IMG/VR virus record: IMGVR_UViG_3300027608_000098 | Location: 1-31,372 of that record | DNA from: a virus | Length of the DNA: 31,372 nucleotides | Strand: one strand, 5' to 3' | In this document: piece after piece, positions 22,550 to 31,244 of the stretch | Position numbering within the stretch: the first letter of the stretch is position 1 | Layout: every line of letters begins with the position of its first letter | Made by a program: the position numbers and the translations under genes | Notes under the pieces: generated by a model | Databases searched by the model: none | What the model was told of the DNA's origin: nothing | The model's input: only the letters and a program-made list of their open reading frames with translations

Positions 22550-23965
22550 TTAGTAGGCTGATTTCAATACTGGCACGCCAAGTTTATCGTCAATTTTCTG
22601 AACAATCTGGGCGACCAGTGACTGCATATCCGTGAAACTTTTAATAAGTTCAGTATTTTGCTGCCTCTGTAAATCGCCCTCCGTTTGCGTCAATGCTTGA
22701 ATCTGCTCGTTTGGCCGAAATCCCATTTGACCAGGTTGAGCGCCAACGCCAGAAAGCAGGCTTACGTCGGTCTGTCGTTGTTGCTGCATGCGCTGGGCAT
22801 CGATCTGGCGAACAATTCCGCCCATTCCCATGCGTTCGGCAGATGCCCTGACTTTATCCAGAATCGTTCCAGACGATTCCATCCCACGCATAATCAGCTC
22901 CTTGTTTTTAAGGGCCGTGTCTTTTTCAAGTTCTAGGATCCGCTTCTTTTCGTCCCTGGCATATTCGGCATCTCGCATCATGCGATCGAAAATCGTTTTA
23001 TCCCGGTCGGCTTCAAGTCTTGCAGCTTCCTGAATATCGTAGATTTCCTCGTCGTATAATTGTTTGTCCAATTTCTTTTTTTCATCAGCGGCTGAAGCAA
23101 CGGCGTCTGCGCTTTCCATTAAAGGAGCCGATGCTGATTTGGCTTCTTTTGCTTTAGGTTGCAACGATTCTTTATGCAGTTTTCTTATTTCTTTGCCTAT
23201 CTGATAGGCGCCTTTGATATCGCCAGTAAATGCTGTTTTTAAGGCATAGCCAACCATGCCAATCTCTTCACCAAATTGCTTGAATGACTCGATGACTGGA
23301 TTGATAAAAGCTGCCAACTCTCCAAAGATTATTACAAAGGTATTTTGAAATGTTTTCAGAGAATCCGATGCTTCTGAAAGCTGTGAGATTGTATCGTCCG
23401 ACCACACGCCGATAGCGTTGCCCTGATCAATAATTGCCGTCGATCCTTGGTTTAATACTTTAATTAGATCGGTTTGCGCCTTGCCAAGAAGTTCATTTAC
23501 GATAATGAACTGGCGGCCCTCATTTGCGCCACTTGCAAAGCTGTCGGATATTTTCAACAAAACATCCTCCGGCTTCATTGTTTTCAAATCTTCAATGCTG
23601 ACGCCAACTTCCTCAAAAGTCTTACCGAGCCCAGTATCCCCCGCCAAAGCCTTCTGCTGGGCCAATGATAGTTTGTTCAGCCCAGCAGATACTTGATCGA
23701 TGCCGCTGCCATAAACAGATGCGGCATTCCCAAGCAGCTGCAATTTGCTGGCAGATACGCCGAATTTTTCTGCAATATCCTGCAACTGATCGCCCTTCTC
23801 AATAGCGCTGGAAAAGCCTGCAATAATCTTGTCGAACGCAAAAGCACCGGCCACTAGCCCGCCTGCCTGTTTTGCAAATTTTCTTACCGACGCCTGAGCC
23901 GACATAAGGCCGCGATCAAAGCCCGATGCGTCTAGCGCTAGCTTGGCTGTGGCAACGGCGTCCAT
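22550..23965 (-). CDS. Tail tape measure protein (short)
   Basis: 471 residues with the tape-measure layout: an N-terminal ATAKLALDASGFDRGLMSAQ segment, as in many tape measures, then long helical stretches, Gly/Ala-rich hydrophobic patches (GLVAGAFAFDKI; MVGYALKTAFTGDI) and coiled coils (EEIYDIQEAARLEADRDKTI). At roughly 1.5 angstrom per residue it would set a tail near 70 nm, which is short for a siphovirus; part of the length may be processed away. It is directly downstream of a gene that starts after the tail assembly chaperones. ATG at 23965 overlaps the preceding stop (TAATG). Confidence 0.8.
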   Translation of the reverse strand: MDAVATAKLALDASGFDRGLMSAQASVRKFAKQAGGLVAGAFAFDKIIAGFSSAIEKGDQLQDIAEKFGVSASKLQLLGNAASVYGSGIDQVSAGLNKLSLAQQKALAGDTGLGKTFEEVGVSIEDLKTMKPEDVLLKISDSFASGANEGRQFIIVNELLGKAQTDLIKVLNQGSTAIIDQGNAIGVWSDDTISQLSEASDSLKTFQNTFVIIFGELAAFINPVIESFKQFGEEIGMVGYALKTAFTGDIKGAYQIGKEIRKLHKESLQPKAKEAKSASAPLMESADAVASAADEKKKLDKQLYDEEIYDIQEAARLEADRDKTIFDRMMRDAEYARDEKKRILELEKDTALKNKELIMRGMESSGTILDKVRASAERMGMGGIVRQIDAQRMQQQRQTDVSLLSGVGAQPGQMGFRPNEQIQALTQTEGDLQRQQNTELIKSFTDMQSLVAQIVQKIDDKLGVPVLKSAY

Positions 23966-24765
23966 TACGCGAACCCTGCTTTTTTAGAATTATGTTTCAC
24001 GATTTCAATCACGCTTTTGGCTAATGTCCCTCGCTGGATGTCAAGAGTCTTGCGCAAAGCTGAACGGCCTAAAGCTCGCCCTATCCAGGGGATGCTATTT
24101 GTTAGCTGAACATATTTATTTGTAAGGATTACTGATCCGCTTCCATATTTTGATATAAGTTTTGTAATCCAGTCTTGAATTTTACCCACACCTTTCACGC
24201 CATCAAATCCGCCAAGTTGTGCTGCGCATTCGGCCCAGCCGGCTTTTGCAATTCCTACTTTTCGTTTTGTTTCATTAATATATTTTTGCTGTTGCACTTT
24301 CAAAATAAAACCGCGATTTGCTGCTGTATGGCGCCCTACGTTGCGATCTGCCTCACCCGCCCTTCGCGTTCTTCCGTCACCCTTGTTTCTCATGCTTTGA
24401 TGAAATCGTTTTATGGTTGATGAATTTAGCTCAACATCTTCTTCTTCTAGCCAAACCTTTCCTTCCTTATTAGTAAAACGACGCTTAAAAGATGCCGGAT
24501 CAAATTGTTTCATGCGAATTGCCTCGTTCATCCAGTGCCTGCTTAAAGGCTTTGTAATTAAAGCAATATCGGCAAGAACTGCATTTTCTCCCTTCTTTCT
24601 TGCCTTTGCATTTAGTCCATACGGTTGAGTTGCGTTGGCCAATCTAACAGCCAAAGCTCTGCCGGATTTTCGCAATTCCCTTGCCTGCTCTTCTGCTGTC
24701 AGTTTTTTCCATCCATTAAGAGCTTTAAGCAATTTTCTATTATCTAATACAAGTTTTGCACTCAT
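23965..24765 (-). CDS. Basic tail protein between chaperones and tape measure
   Basis: 266 residues, very basic (KKLTAEEQARELRKSGRALA; RFHQSMRNKGDGRTRRAGEA; KTLDIQRGTLAKSVIEIVKH) and helical. No family recognised. Its place, after the tail-assembly chaperone pair and before the tape measure, suggests a tail-initiator or tape-binding component. ATG at 24765 overlaps the frameshift-extension stop by 4 bases (ATGA), and its own stop overlaps the tape-measure start (TAATG). The Lys/Arg richness could fit DNA or RNA contact; this is speculative. Confidence 0.6.
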   Translation of the reverse strand: MSAKLVLDNRKLLKALNGWKKLTAEEQARELRKSGRALAVRLANATQPYGLNAKARKKGENAVLADIALITKPLSRHWMNEAIRMKQFDPASFKRRFTNKEGKVWLEEEDVELNSSTIKRFHQSMRNKGDGRTRRAGEADRNVGRHTAANRGFILKVQQQKYINETKRKVGIAKAGWAECAAQLGGFDGVKGVGKIQDWITKLISKYGSGSVILTNKYVQLTNSIPWIGRALGRSALRKTLDIQRGTLAKSVIEIVKHNSKKAGFA

Positions 24766-25348
24766 AGTCCTAACGCTTTCTCCATGTCACGAAGATCCGT
24801 GCCCACGATTGAATATGGCCTGCGTAATTTTGCCCCGTTCATATACATAAAGACGTGCTCCGCTTGATGCAGAATTTCCAGAGGGATTTCCCATAAGATT
24901 GTCATCAATGGCCAACCAGTTTCTTTAGCCAGGACGAACACGCTGCAAGCGGTTCCGCCTGGCGTTACCCGTTTCCCGGTGGCTGTGGTACGCCGGATGG
25001 AATGACGTTCACCTTGGCCTTATTCGATTCGTTTAAAATGCTGGCGACTAGCAGGCTTGCCGTATCTCGATCCTCCTCGCCAAGATTCTCCGACCATTCC
25101 ATTAGTTTTTCTCTGAATGCGTCTTGGTTCCAAGCCAGTTTGATGGCGGCTTTTCTATCTTTCGCCAACAAGATGTGCAGGTAAATGAAGGCATAAACAA
25201 AGAAAATCGGGCTATCGTTTTCGTTGCGGATCTGGATCATCAAAAGCCTACTGCCCTCAGTGTATGGCGCCAGCGGCTGATCTTTGAAAAGTTTGTTTGG
25301 CGATATGAATGCCTGATCCAGTTCCTGTAATAAATTATCTTCACTCAT
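24762..25348 (-). CDS. Tail assembly chaperone G-GT fusion made by programmed -1 frameshift
   Basis: A second product of the gene at 24965-25348. At GGGAAAC (24977-24971), in the correct register G GGA AAC, a -1 slip takes the ribosome past the zero-frame stop 24967-24965 into an extension of 69 codons (RVTPGGTACSVFVLAKETGW, ending LRDMEKALGL) that stops at 24764-24762. The fused product would be 195 residues. The extension contains no early stop and joins the next gene by ATGA, as expected for real coding sequence. Comparable to lambda G/GT, where the short form and the fusion load the tape measure and tail tube. Confidence 0.8.
24965..25348 (-). CDS. Tail assembly chaperone, short form (gpG-like)
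   Basis: 127 residues, charged and helical (SEDNLLQELDQAFISPNKLF; GEEDRDTASLLVASILNESN), ending PPGNG. It lies one gene upstream of the tape measure, where siphovirus tail-assembly chaperones are found. Its last codons contain the slippery sequence GGGAAAC, four codons before the stop counted from G GGA AAC. The ATG at 25348 overlaps the upstream stop by 4 bases. See the fusion entry for the second product. Confidence 0.8.
   Translation of the reverse strand: MSEDNLLQELDQAFISPNKLFKDQPLAPYTEGSRLLMIQIRNENDSPIFFVYAFIYLHILLAKDRKAAIKLAWNQDAFREKLMEWSENLGEEDRDTASLLVASILNESNKAKVNVIPSGVPQPPGNG
24971..24977 (-). promoter_or_regulatory. -1 ribosomal slippery heptamer GGGAAAC
   Basis: On the minus strand the codons read CCG GGA AAC GGG TAA, so the heptamer G GGA AAC is exactly X XXY YYZ in frame, 2 codons ahead of the stop. 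After the -1 slip, P- and A-site codons become GGG and AAA. The extension frame is open for 69 codons. Lambda uses the closely similar GGGAAAG at its G/T junction. Confidence 0.85.
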
Positions 25349-25719
25349 AGTTTTTTTAATATCGCTCGTTTCAACTCTGGGCTGGCACGCTCGCTGACTA
25401 GGAGCGTCTGCCCGCCACGCTGAATTGATATAATCGGCTCGGCTCGCTTCATTAAGCCTAGGAGAGTTTCCCTGTTTTCAAGTGCTGCCCGCACATAGCG
25501 AATTGCAGATTCTTCGTCGGATTTCATGTCTGCCCAAGTGCGTTCCATTTCGGCCTTTGCTTCTTCGCCGCCCGATACGGAAAACCAAAAGGTAAACTGA
25601 CGATGGCCATCCTCTTTTACGATGCAAGTAACGGGATCAGATTGCCTTAACTTAGCGCCAAAGGCCGAGGCGGCCGCAGCCACTTTGATATTTGTTGTAC
25701 CCCAAAAGCTATCTATCAT
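25345..25719 (-). CDS. Tail-region protein, unknown
   Basis: 124 residues, mixed alpha/beta. An N-terminal part (SFWGTTNIKVAAAASAFGAK; TCIVKEDGHRQFTFWFSVSG) with beta character is followed by helices (AEMERTWADMKSDEESAIRY) and a basic end. Between the tail tube and the chaperones. ATG at 25719, preceded by GAAATCCTAAAAA. No family recognised; a tail protein that works with the chaperones is likely from position. Confidence 0.6.
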   Translation of the reverse strand: MIDSFWGTTNIKVAAAASAFGAKLRQSDPVTCIVKEDGHRQFTFWFSVSGGEEAKAEMERTWADMKSDEESAIRYVRAALENRETLLGLMKRAEPIISIQRGGQTLLVSERASPELKRAILKKL

Positions 25720-26583: not shown

Positions 26584-27198
26584 TCACCAGATCGGGCGAA
26601 TGGACGGATCAAATGTGACCATGGTTTTACATCCAGCGCCACCATGCGGAAAGGTTGGGGTGTAGTGGTATCGCTTGACGCAATCAGGCCAAGTCATCGT
26701 GGCCTTTCCCCTGGCTGCCTTTGGCGTATCCACGGATCGATCGTTATCCTCGACAATAAAGGTGCAGGGTAGATCTGCCCCAGCCACATAGTTCACGGCC
26801 TCATAAAAATGGCCCTCGTCCTCAGCTCCATCGCCCAAGAAGCACCACACCTTTGCCGAGCTTCCCTGCTCTTTTAATGTGTGCGCCACTCCGGCCGCTA
26901 TCCCGCAAGTGCCAGCCAACACGCTTGACGTATAGAAATTGAGCTTACGGTCAAAGACAAACATGGAGCGACCATCTCTAATCATCTGCTCAAGCACGTC
27001 AGGATCTCCGCCAGAGAGCAGATAGTGATAGTGGGATCTGTGGCTTGAGAAGATCCAATCGCCTGGCTTGATGTCTTTGAATATCTCGATGAGCTGATCC
27101 TCGTTTCCACCGCATAGGTGAATCAGATATGGCAGCTTGCCCTGCTCAAATAGCGCCTTAATGCGCAGTTCAAAATCAATCAGATCCTGCTTGTTCAT
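26584..27198 (-). CDS. Shortened thiamine-diphosphate-dependent E1-alpha-like subunit
   Basis: 204 residues. Resembles 2-oxoacid dehydrogenase E1 alpha: WIFSSHRSHYHYLLSGGDPD (about 48-67), then TSSVLAGTCGIAAGVAHTLK, then the TPP-binding motif GDGAEDEGHFYEAVNYVAG (G122-D123-G124) with EDND (N152) 28 residues later. Full E1 alpha chains are about 320-370 aa; this ends soon after the TPP site and lacks the C-terminal phosphorylation-loop/helix region. The partner shortened E1-beta lies two genes upstream with the radical SAM gene between. Together they could decarboxylate or transfer a two-carbon unit in sugar or oxoacid chemistry; substrate unknown. Confidence 0.85.
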   Translation of the reverse strand: MNKQDLIDFELRIKALFEQGKLPYLIHLCGGNEDQLIEIFKDIKPGDWIFSSHRSHYHYLLSGGDPDVLEQMIRDGRSMFVFDRKLNFYTSSVLAGTCGIAAGVAHTLKEQGSSAKVWCFLGDGAEDEGHFYEAVNYVAGADLPCTFIVEDNDRSVDTPKAARGKATMTWPDCVKRYHYTPTFPHGGAGCKTMVTFDPSIRPIW

Positions 27199-28289
27199 AC
27201 AAAGGCATCGTGACTATCGGTGGCCAGCTTTTCAAATAGTGCCACCTTGCCGTGATTTGCGCATTCATGCAGGCAACTGACGCCAGGGTTAAAGTTTTTA
27301 TGCCATGCTCTCGCCTCTTCTCCGAACCATGCTTGGCTAAATGATTGATCCTTCATGGAGGCGATGCGGCCGTGATTGCTGTATGCGGTATTGTGGCATG
27401 CGTAGATATTAAGATCCGCGCCTACCACGCAAACGGCCTGAGCGTAAAGACAGCGATGGAATGGCCGAACGGGCGACTTACTTGGGCTATCCAGATCATA
27501 GGTCGTGTTGATGGTAAAATCTGAATCACAAAAGGATTGGCATTCGGCCAGTTGCTCCCGCACCCTGGTTGCAATCGTGTTGTGATATTCTTTAAAGTTC
27601 TGCACGTAAACGGGCGAGAAGCGGACATTACTTACGCCTGAATCCTTGAGCTGTTTAGCGAACGGAACTAGTCCCTCGTAATTGTAGCGGGTAATAATAA
27701 AGTTAATCCCAAGGTCGCAGCTCTCTGTTTTCGTGTTGGAAAAGTTTTTTATATTCTGCATCACGGAATCAAACGATCTGTCAGGCACATTACGGCTAGA
27801 TGCCATCTGCTCTGCGCTTGTGTAGTCCATGGAAATCCTCACCCACTTTGCCTTGCCCAATACTTCTGCCCTTTCCCCCGCAAGTAGTTGGCCGTTGGTA
27901 ATAATGGATAGATCCAACCCAGACGAAACTGTCTTAGTCATAATCTCGACAATGTCTTTATGCAGCAAAGGCTCTCCGCCACCGCTGAAGGTGACGGCCT
28001 TTGTTCCTATGTTTGAAAGATCCTCTATTAGTTCTAGTGCCTTATCTCGTGGCATCACGTCCCTCTCGTTCATGCTGGTGTGCATGCCAGCCTGCAGGTG
28101 CAAGTCAGGCCGATCCTTTGGCCGAGTTGTGCCGTCAGAATAGACGCAGAAACGGCAGGCGTGGTTACAGATATTCGTCGGCTTAATCCGCACGTATATG
28201 GGTGCGGTGATAATATCGTCGCGAAAGCTGGCGATCTTATCCGGGAACGAAAAGATTTTAAGATCACTGTACTTGTTCTGTTTCACCAT
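27195..28289 (-). CDS. Radical SAM protein with SPASM-like C-terminus
   Basis: 364 residues. Radical SAM motif CNHACRFC (C41, C45, C48) binds the [4Fe-4S] cluster that splits S-adenosylmethionine. GGGEPLL (about 105) is the usual SAM-binding motif, followed by the TIM-barrel pattern (KWVRISMDYT; INFIITRYNYEGLVPFAKQL). C-terminal cysteines (RCLYAQAVC; NIYACHN; SCLHECANHGK) can bind one or more auxiliary Fe-S clusters (SPASM or twitch type). It sits between the two TPP subunits, overlapping E1-alpha by 4 bases and E1-beta by 7. It may epimerise, dehydrogenate or modify a sugar, peptide or nucleotide; the substrate is not evident. Confidence 0.93.
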   Translation of the reverse strand: MVKQNKYSDLKIFSFPDKIASFRDDIITAPIYVRIKPTNICNHACRFCVYSDGTTRPKDRPDLHLQAGMHTSMNERDVMPRDKALELIEDLSNIGTKAVTFSGGGEPLLHKDIVEIMTKTVSSGLDLSIITNGQLLAGERAEVLGKAKWVRISMDYTSAEQMASSRNVPDRSFDSVMQNIKNFSNTKTESCDLGINFIITRYNYEGLVPFAKQLKDSGVSNVRFSPVYVQNFKEYHNTIATRVREQLAECQSFCDSDFTINTTYDLDSPSKSPVRPFHRCLYAQAVCVVGADLNIYACHNTAYSNHGRIASMKDQSFSQAWFGEEARAWHKNFNPGVSCLHECANHGKVALFEKLATDSHDAFV

Positions 28290-28801
28290 TCATCCTTTCG
28301 CTCGACCAGCATGGTGGATGTCCCAGCGATCAGCCTTTGCAATGCGTTTTGATATTCGCTCACTACGCTCTCCTTCTTTAGTTCGACGATTGGGAAATCG
28401 ATCATCTTCCTAAGAGCTTCGGTGAAGTCCTGCGTATGGGTTGGCCCCGTGTAGAGCGGTTTGCTTTTATTGCCTATGACTACCCGCAAGATGGCGGCAG
28501 GCTTGAATTGATTGCAGCTAATATGCTGGGCTGCGCCCAGGTGATTCACGATGGCGTCCAGTGCGTTGAGAATAAAATCCATCCGCTCAATAAAGACGAC
28601 GGGCTTCAGCCCGGCTAAACTCAGGCCCGTGGCTAGTCCTACCATCAGATTTTCAGCGACAGGCGTTTCAATCAGTTGTGAATCCGAAACATTATTGAGC
28701 GTGCCTGCCGCCCGGCCGCCTATCTTTACCCCGTAGCCTATAAACCTGACGGCCGGATCGGCCGCCAATAAATCCATCGCCTGAGTCAGCTCCTTCTTCA
28801 C
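28283..28801 (-). CDS. Shortened E1-beta-like (transketolase pyrimidine-binding) subunit
   Basis: 172 residues with the pyrimidine-binding domain of E1 beta/transketolase: IETPVAENLMVGLATGLSLA has the catalytic Glu (E50) that activates the TPP aminopyrimidine, followed by GLKPVVFIERMDFILNALDA and AIVNHLGAA. The C-terminal domain present in full E1 beta chains (about 320-340 aa) is absent. GTG start at 28801 overlaps the GT9-like gene stop by 4 bases. The alpha-like subunit would supply the diphosphate site, so an active alpha-beta dimer is feasible. Confidence 0.85.
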   Translation of the reverse strand: MKKELTQAMDLLAADPAVRFIGYGVKIGGRAAGTLNNVSDSQLIETPVAENLMVGLATGLSLAGLKPVVFIERMDFILNALDAIVNHLGAAQHISCNQFKPAAILRVVIGNKSKPLYTGPTHTQDFTEALRKMIDFPIVELKKESVVSEYQNALQRLIAGTSTMLVERKDEW

Positions 28802-29562
28802 AGTAAGCCTTCTTCTTCAAGAATGTGCAGGGCGTGAAATGCGCTCCTAGCCATCTGGCCGCGTTCGGTAAATATGACTGTCTCGGTATCTGCACACAGC
28901 AAGTGGAAGGCGTTTTTGTTGTGAACGTTTAGGCACGGCCAGCTCGGCCCGGTGGATGTTCCGATGACGGCTTTAGCCTTTGCAGCCGTCGCCCCTATCC
29001 AAGTCACATTCTTGCCATCAAATGCCGGGCATAATCCAGTATCGACTGTGCTGATTACCCGATGGCCCTTGCTAACTAGTTTAGATACTAGGTTGCGAAA
29101 ATCGTCGGGGTTAAAGTTTGTAAATTGACCAGACAGCCCTGGCGAATTTATCACGACAATATCGCAGTCTGGCGCCATCGGAATAAAGGAATCTAGGGCT
29201 GGATAGTCAAAAAGGAGGTCATCGACTTTCCGGATCGGATTCTTTACGCACATCCTGCTGGCCAGTTCCTCGAACCAACATAGATGAAATTTGGCGAAGT
29301 TTAATTTGTCGGGATGACGCTCCCAATATCCGCCTGCATTACGCCAAGAATCAATACTATCGGCTGGCGCCTCGCTGATTGGTCGAATGCGTAGCCGTAA
29401 AGACATGTCGCTCCGCAAGGCATCAATCTCCTCAAACTTGCACAGCTCTGGATTGTGATAGTGCGTGATCTCAATATCTGGATTTTGCAGGCATAGCCTA
29501 CGTAGAAAGTTTAACTGCACCAGGTTGTCGCCCAAACGCAGTGCGTTGTGGGTGTGAATCAC
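28798..29562 (-). CDS. GT9-like (heptosyltransferase-type) glycosyltransferase
   Basis: 254 residues. THNALRLGDNLVQLNFLRRL (residues 4-23) is similar to the start of heptosyltransferase-type GT-B enzymes. Then CDIVVINSPGLSGQFTNFNP (133-152), and TAAKAKAVIGTSTGPSWPCL (192-211) matches the GT9 C-terminal donor-binding signature (xGxDTGPSHLA-like). It is shorter than typical heptosyltransferases (about 320-350). GTG at 29562 overlaps the GT2 gene stop by 4 bases. A glycosyl donor made or altered by neighbours would be transferred to an unknown acceptor. Confidence 0.75.
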   Translation of the reverse strand: MIHTHNALRLGDNLVQLNFLRRLCLQNPDIEITHYHNPELCKFEEIDALRSDMSLRLRIRPISEAPADSIDSWRNAGGYWERHPDKLNFAKFHLCWFEELASRMCVKNPIRKVDDLLFDYPALDSFIPMAPDCDIVVINSPGLSGQFTNFNPDDFRNLVSKLVSKGHRVISTVDTGLCPAFDGKNVTWIGATAAKAKAVIGTSTGPSWPCLNVHNKNAFHLLCADTETVIFTERGQMARSAFHALHILEEEGLL

Positions 29563-31244
29563 GGATTCCGCTCCTTGAATATCTTTTCGCCAAGCTCGTA
29601 GTTCTCCTTGGCGTTGTGGCGTTTAAATTCCGCATCCTGCGCCGCGCCGGTGAAGAGCGGATTATTGTGAGTGAATACGATATCCTTAGCGGGAATGATC
29701 ACACCGTCGTATGCGGCTCTTTTAGAAAATTCGTTATCCGAGAATATGCCGGAGCAAGCGTCATATTCGGCGGCAAACATTGCGCCTTGATCTTGCAGTC
29801 GTGCTTTTGTGAGGATTGCCATGCACAACAGATCGTCTTTGCGGTGGCCGTCGGAAATCGCCAGTACCTTGGGCTTGCTGGTATCGCCAATCCTGTCGCT
29901 GATTATCTTGTCCCAATGTAGCGGAGGGTCCCAATCGTCGGAGCCTTGAATGATAATTTCACCACGGGCTACTTCGGCCGCCCTGTTCCAAGCAGCAATA
30001 CATCCGCCCTTACCTTTAACGATTCCCCAATTTTTCAGCATGTCCGCTTTTGGGTCGTCATCGTCGACTGAGTAGATCCACTCGACTGACGCTGGATCTG
30101 CCGCCTTTTTCATCCACAAGATGCGGGCGTTGATCGCTTCCTGTGGGCGGCCTCGGGTGGCGTGGCAAACGGTAATCTTTACGGGCTTCTGCGCCCGCCA
30201 CATGTTCTCAATCTTTTCTGCCTCGGCCGTATCGCCCACGGCTTTGCAGGCCGCGAGGTATAGATCAATGCACTCAAAGTCGTACACGGTGCGCTGGGCG
30301 TTCCAGATCTTTACGCCCGGATCGGGCTGAACCATTGCCGATTTTAGCAAGTGATAAGCCTGCAACCAGGCACCCACGCTGGCCTCTTCCCTGGCTAAAT
30401 AGTAAATCGCTTCCCTGCGCCCAGGGTTCATCTGATGTGCCTTTTGGTATAAACCAATTCTGACCGTGCGATCTTGCGTAGCTGTCGCTTGATTGCAGGC
30501 AGCCTCGTAAGCCAGCGTGGCCTCTTGCCCCGGCCAGATGGCCGCAACGTGTGACCACGGTTCTGATTCTGTCCTGCGATTACCTAGGAAAAGTTCCTGC
30601 TGGTAGTAGTACGCATACTTGCCTGCCTCGCTTAACTGACCCTGAAGAATGCGCAGATTCCGATCGGCGCTACCCGCCTTGTAACCACCGGGGTGATGCT
30701 CCACCCATACCGTCTGCTCGCCCACAGATTCCAGCCCAGCATTAGGCAACAGCGCCTCATGTACGGCATAGTTCCACCTGCCAGACCATACGCCATCTAT
30801 ACGCCGCACCATGCGCTCACGTACTGGCCTTAATTTGGCGTTTATAACGTCATAGACGCCTGCATAGATGCCGAGCTTGGGATTCTGCTCAAACGCTTCC
30901 ACGCCCCTTTTAAGAGCGTTTTTAAGGTCTTTATGTGGCAAGTCATCGCAATCCACCCATACCGCATAGTCGCCAGTACAGGCATCCAATGCGGTATTGC
31001 GGGCGGCGGCAAAGTTGTCGACGTGGGGCCAGCTCGCCCCTGCCGGTGCGTTTTTATATTCAACTATCTTAGCGCCTGACTTTTCGGCAATCGCCCGCGT
31101 GCCATCGTCAGGCCGAGCGCCCTGGGCCATGCAAATTACCAGCTCATCGCAGTATGGTAAAAATGCAGTTACAAAGCGCTGCATGAATTGCGCCTCGTGC
31201 CCGGCGATTGCGTAAATGGAGATTTTAGGATTTCGAGTGGCCAC
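29559..31244 (-). CDS. Two-domain GT2-type glycosyltransferase with helical-repeat linker
   Basis: 561 residues. Domain 1 (1-200) is a GT2-type GT-A: ISIYAIAGHEAQFMQRFVTA, HVDNFAAARNTALDACTGDY and WVDCDDLPH (D98, D100, D101, the DxD metal site). Residues about 205-350 look like TPR-type helices (YEAACNQATATQDRTVRIGL; AWLQAYHLLKSAMVQPDPGV). Domain 2 (about 353-561) resembles a second GT-A-type unit: ITVCHATRGRPQEAINARIL, WIYSVDDDDPKADML and IIQGSDDWDPPLHWDKIIS. Start GTG at 31244, 2 bases after the upstream gene stop. It may add two sugars, or one domain may be non-catalytic. Confidence 0.85.
   Translation of the reverse strand: MATRNPKISIYAIAGHEAQFMQRFVTAFLPYCDELVICMAQGARPDDGTRAIAEKSGAKIVEYKNAPAGASWPHVDNFAAARNTALDACTGDYAVWVDCDDLPHKDLKNALKRGVEAFEQNPKLGIYAGVYDVINAKLRPVRERMVRRIDGVWSGRWNYAVHEALLPNAGLESVGEQTVWVEHHPGGYKAGSADRNLRILQGQLSEAGKYAYYYQQELFLGNRRTESEPWSHVAAIWPGQEATLAYEAACNQATATQDRTVRIGLYQKAHQMNPGRREAIYYLAREEASVGAWLQAYHLLKSAMVQPDPGVKIWNAQRTVYDFECIDLYLAACKAVGDTAEAEKIENMWRAQKPVKITVCHATRGRPQEAINARILWMKKAADPASVEWIYSVDDDDPKADMLKNWGIVKGKGGCIAAWNRAAEVARGEIIIQGSDDWDPPLHWDKIISDRIGDTSKPKVLAISDGHRKDDLLCMAILTKARLQDQGAMFAAEYDACSGIFSDNEFSKRAAYDGVIIPAKDIVFTHNNPLFTGAAQDAEFKRHNAKENYELGEKIFKERNP

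Follow-up and report, generated by a model that had tools for sequence, protein, structure and literature searches.

A short gene near the tail tape measure gene of a virus recorded in IMG/VR very probably ends in a programmed −1 ribosomal frameshift like that of lambda G/GT, which would make tail-assembly chaperones. The source DNA is a virus record of 31,372 bases, and the whole stretch (the window) was analysed. Slippage in vivo, frameshift efficiency and chaperone function are matters that we infer. The elements of the site are as follows.

24965..25348, minus strand: G-like tail assembly chaperone gene, zero frame, 127 aa, ATG to TAA, kept in 50 loci of the close group
24971..24977, minus strand: slippery heptamer GGGAAAC, read G GGA AAC, with a predicted tandem −1 slip to GGG AAA; in-register heptamer in 80 of 80 relatives
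24762..24971, minus strand: T-like extension, −1 frame, 69 codons plus TGA; base 24971 would be read twice
24928..24963, minus strand: hairpin, probable frameshift stimulator, outer stem GCCAGG/CCUGGC, starting 7 nt after the heptamer

Architecture of the frameshift site

The zero-frame ORF ends in CCA CCG GGA AAC GGG TAA and its protein in P-P-G-N-G-stop. The heptamer (G_GGA_AAC, positions 24977–24971) is in register with this frame and is followed by the single codon GGG and then TAA, and such an X XXY YYZ heptamer close to the zero-frame end is a hallmark of G/GT-type frameshifts. From the junction, the −1 frame continues from R127 to L195 and ends at the TGA at 24764–24762, which overlaps the ATG at 24765. 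In the window, ATG, GTG and TTG are absent from this frame between its upstream stop and the eighth codon of the extension. The extension is thus an open, protein-conserved −1 frame with no start of its own, a second hallmark of this type of frameshift. The original prediction had described the in-register heptamer, the junction at Asn126-Arg127, the reading frame open to a TGA overlapping the next ATG and the lack of a good start at the junction. Its coordinates, strand, register, lengths and junction residues were all correct.

In the mechanism that we propose, the majority of ribosomes would translate the 127-aa G protein and terminate. A minority would meet the hairpin with their P and A sites on GGA AAC, where the pairing in both sites would slip back one base together. 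The slipped ribosomes would then read the 69-codon −1 frame and produce a 195-aa G-T fusion connected via a Pro/Gly-rich linker. In G/GT systems, the fusion amounts to a few percent of G. If lambda is a guide, the tape measure protein would be coated by many copies of G and few of G-T, which would bring tail-tube subunits to it.

Conservation of the heptamer and extension

The original prediction had proposed comparing the conservation of the extension with that of the zero frame. The extension is conserved and even easier to trace: searches of IMG/VR returned 80 or more relatives with T as the query and 27 with G. All 26 close relatives (75–100% identical in G; the contig of locus L015 ends inside the −1 frame) have GGGAAAC separated from the stop by a single codon, and their −1 frame stays open over the same 69 codons. 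Furthermore, every one of the 80 T relatives has an in-register XXXYYYZ heptamer 0–1 codons before the zero-frame stop and a stop-free extension. The letters of the heptamer vary (GGGAAAC in 44, CCCAAAC in 23, GGGAAAG in 12 and CCCAAAA in 1), as do the residues encoded there, and residues are conserved from the slip site onward. A number of these contigs are closely similar, so that the 80 loci count for fewer than 80 independent events; the four letter states are spread over clearly diverged lineages. Relatives in metagenome-assembled genomes (MAGs) and genomes carry CCCAAAC, GGGAAAC, AAAAAAG and AAAAAAC. Two of the loci, L074 and L116, belong to one record (IMGVR_UViG_3300032268_000444). Both ends of its contig fall in the GT gene, and the record therefore probably represents a genome, circular or with terminal redundancy, that was opened within this gene.

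Heptamers in register within the last 12 codons are scarce in the window (3 of 36 minus-strand genes). The two other than G have A7 runs, and their −1 frame is simply the next gene. One of these A7 runs marks the 3′ end of the gene upstream of G:

25345..25719, minus strand: 124-aa gene, overlapping the chaperone start (ATGA), with a 3′ A7 run

This run was considered as a second slippery site fusing the 124-aa protein to G and was rejected as a chance occurrence because it is interrupted in many relatives (AAAGAAA, AACAAA, AGCAGG). It is a useful negative control against the G/T heptamer, which is kept in 80 of 80 relatives. As a positive control, the same test recovered the known GGGAAAG of lambda. 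A Shine-Dalgarno-type stimulator was not evident upstream of the heptamer when the 25 nt shown for the window were inspected by eye.

Codon-level selection and a conserved hairpin

We examined nucleotide variation in 24 sequences of the close group, all distinct and equally long. Before the junction, the variable positions show the codon pattern of frame 0, and after it that of the −1 frame, where, counted in the −1 frame, variable third positions amount to 52/64 and variable second positions to 12/64. Judged from these patterns, the extension is under codon-level protein selection, and purifying selection acts in both frames. After correction for the encoded residues, synonymous variation falls to 0.45 of the expected value at the slip codons and to 0.34 over the next 16 codons, compared with ~1.05–1.1 elsewhere in both coding parts. 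None of 20000 permutations gave a dip as low over the site and hairpin.

The hairpin of the window has a predicted energy of −23.1 kcal/mol (z −3.2). Representatives of all lineages (28 in total) have a mean z of −2.85, with 26 below −1, and their main stem usually starts 6–8 nt after the heptamer; the predicted strong hairpin is missing in L067 and in the Haloferula locus L137. In an ungapped stack of 29 distinct sequences, 195 of 203 outer-stem cells are paired, compared with maxima of 189 in 2000 shuffles and 103 in slid stacks, a count favoured by the inclusion of only those sequences whose predicted hairpin has this register. One outer-stem pair exchanges G-C, C-G and A-U, a compensatory change. 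RNA structures ~5–9 nt downstream are common, if not universal, in G/GT frameshifts, and the structure and spacing found here match that range. The hairpin, which the original prediction had not mentioned, would stimulate frameshifting, and its canonical spacing provides independent support for the frameshift reading. The swapping of heptamers beneath a hairpin kept in place is clean evolutionary evidence that selection acts on the nucleotide signal and not on the peptide.

Alternative explanations

The close overlap of the two ORFs is also what one would see if the extension were an independent gene that had a start codon and was translationally coupled to termination of G; indeed, the annotators of the Akkermansia phage Moulinsart called the T half separately, placing its start 30 nt beyond the stop codon of G. 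However, no ATG, GTG or TTG lies upstream of the conserved RVTPGG in the window and most representatives, and the residues are conserved from the slip site on. A separate gene, which also leaves the conserved heptamer and the silent-site constraint unexplained, is very unlikely. The slip could instead be transcriptional, with the polymerase rather than the ribosome slipping, as the A6 runs of some distant members (AAAAAAC, AAAAAAG) might allow. Yet most members, including the window, have only three-base runs (GGGAAA, CCCAAA), too short for polymerase slippage, and the hairpin sits at ribosomal spacing, making this an extremely improbable source of the frame change.

A sequencing error or decayed gene has nothing in its favour beyond the metagenomic origin of the DNA. 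Eighty loci assembled from many samples share the architecture, as do MAGs, an isolate genome and the phage record of an induced prophage. Purifying selection in both frames is also at odds with decay, and the conservation data already refute this explanation, whose probability we consider negligible. The programmed ribosomal frameshift, proposed originally as a G/GT-type fusion, is supported by a heptamer kept with changed letters, a conserved extension and a conserved hairpin.

Protein family and comparison with known systems

Searches of Pfam and PHROGs returned no relevant family match for G, T or their relatives, and the same was true of NCBIfam, searched with G only. G also had no relevant match among PDB sequences. 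Structure models were built separately for the two parts, as no single one of the six reading frames yields the full fusion. The G model (pLDDT 85, helical) had no significant fold match in PDB or in the viral collection BFVD, and the T model (pLDDT 76) had none in PDB. Residues 111–127 of G fall below pLDDT 50, and the junction linker is rich in proline and glycine; in the models, such a low-confidence junction is as expected for two domains on a tether. Aligning the family profiles to lambda gpG and gpT with hhalign gave no significant result. For T, the best-aligned stretch, SFALKLAREMGRPD against CSVFVLAKETGWPL, falls at the matching place just past the junction, and homology could not be called from it. 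The putative name ‘tail chaperone’ is based on the position before the tape measure gene and on the architecture. The mechanism is well known in kind, and the protein family appears to be undescribed, without a match in Pfam and PHROGs (and NCBIfam for G). By its architecture, the G/GT pair probably works like the known pairs, with no homology to named families detected.

In lambda, as in most long-tailed phages, the tape measure gene is preceded by a G ORF that carries a −1 T extension; there, gpG forms a coat on the tape measure protein, and gpGT binds the tail-tube protein through its T part (PMC5009743). The window shares with lambda a short G ORF ending near an XXXYYYZ heptamer and a −1 fusion to T ahead of the tape measure gene. 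However, lambda has GGGAAAG instead of GGGAAAC, five codons to the stop instead of one and a T part of 144 instead of 69 aa. The window also has a stronger predicted hairpin, one gene between T and the tape measure, and no detectable sequence homology to lambda. In E. coli, A_AAG generally outperforms A_AAC as a −1 site (PMC5009743), a point against the frameshift reading. An intervening gene is also known from HK97 gp13/gp14, whose record annotates a −1 fusion and places a small gene ahead of the tape measure, and from gp18/gp19 of Burkholderia phage KL1, which has GGGAAAC right before the stop (PMC3483164). Both infect hosts of other phyla, and the window proteins lack a family match. G_GGA_AAC also serves the same product pair in Caulobacter phage CcrColossus (PMC3556154) and in the archaeal virus HCTV-1 (PMC5009743), which have other hosts and are likened to the window by the site alone.

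Genome context

The following genes, all on the minus strand, flank the chaperone locus.

23965..24765, minus strand: 266-aa gene between T and the tape measure gene, its ATG overlapping the TGA that ends T; in synteny across most loci of the close group
22550..23965, minus strand: gene for the 471-aa tail tape measure protein (matches to PHROG tape-measure families, best E 2.7e-15)
26584-29562, minus strand: cassette between structural genes, with TPP-dependent E1-like alpha, radical SAM/SPASM, transketolase-like beta and a 254-aa protein
29559-31244, minus strand: glycosyltransferase-like gene, 561 aa, after the cassette

The tape measure gene lies two genes downstream of the chaperone gene, with one gene between them and synteny in 40–50 loci, a position typical of tail-assembly chaperones. 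Tail length usually follows a rule of 0.15 nm per tape measure residue, by which the short tape measure protein (471 aa) predicts a tail of ~70 nm.

The 266-aa gene after the T stop occurs in two versions (~65–100% or ~30% identical) among nearly identical neighbours (loci L055, L057, L059–L069 and L072, and window positions 23965–24765). For example, L055 and the window are 100% identical in G and T and 99% in the tape measure, but 31% in the 266-aa protein. This suggests that the 266-aa gene is a sharply exchanged single gene. The E1-like alpha, radical SAM/SPASM and transketolase-like beta genes recur beside tail genes in 20–24 related loci. From its gene content, the cassette is possibly an auxiliary metabolic or glycan-modification module.

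Hosts and named relatives

Verrucomicrobiota were the source of every relative in the bacterial genome collection: two MAGs (Chthoniobacter and Pedosphaera) and one Haloferula isolate. The T profile was found in 12 of the 387 Verrucomicrobiota genomes searched. The phage collection gave no match to the window protein and one weak match to a typical distant T, in Akkermansia phage Moulinsart. Given these relatives in Verrucomicrobiota genomes and in Moulinsart, the host of the window phage is probably a freshwater Verrucomicrobiota-type bacterium.

Moulinsart, described as a prophage induced in A. muciniphila YL44 (PMC10197239), is the closest named phage (WAK79076/WAK79077; locus L153, ON453896.1 11087–11332). 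Its T is 38% identical to the typical distant T (E 6e-3), and its G is too diverged for BLAST. Like the window, it has an in-register heptamer, A_AAA_AAC, followed directly by a stop (AAA AAC TAG) and a tape measure gene downstream; unlike the window, it has three genes between T and the tape measure. In the record, each half is a hypothetical protein of its own. The in-register AAAAAAC with TAG indicates that the Moulinsart GT gene holds a putative, unannotated frameshift.

A wider proposal, which we regard as speculative and rather doubtful, is that Verrucomicrobiota phages have a large family of tail chaperones of their own. The shift would depend mainly on tRNA-Asn re-pairing at A_AAC together with a hairpin of fixed size and spacing, reflecting a ribosome or tRNA preference of the host unlike that of E. 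coli. Automatic annotation splits the GT gene and overlooks the fusion, as in Moulinsart. With the frameshift site, tail-assembly chaperones can be named reliably in Verrucomicrobiota phages, where tail genes are mostly labelled ‘hypothetical’.
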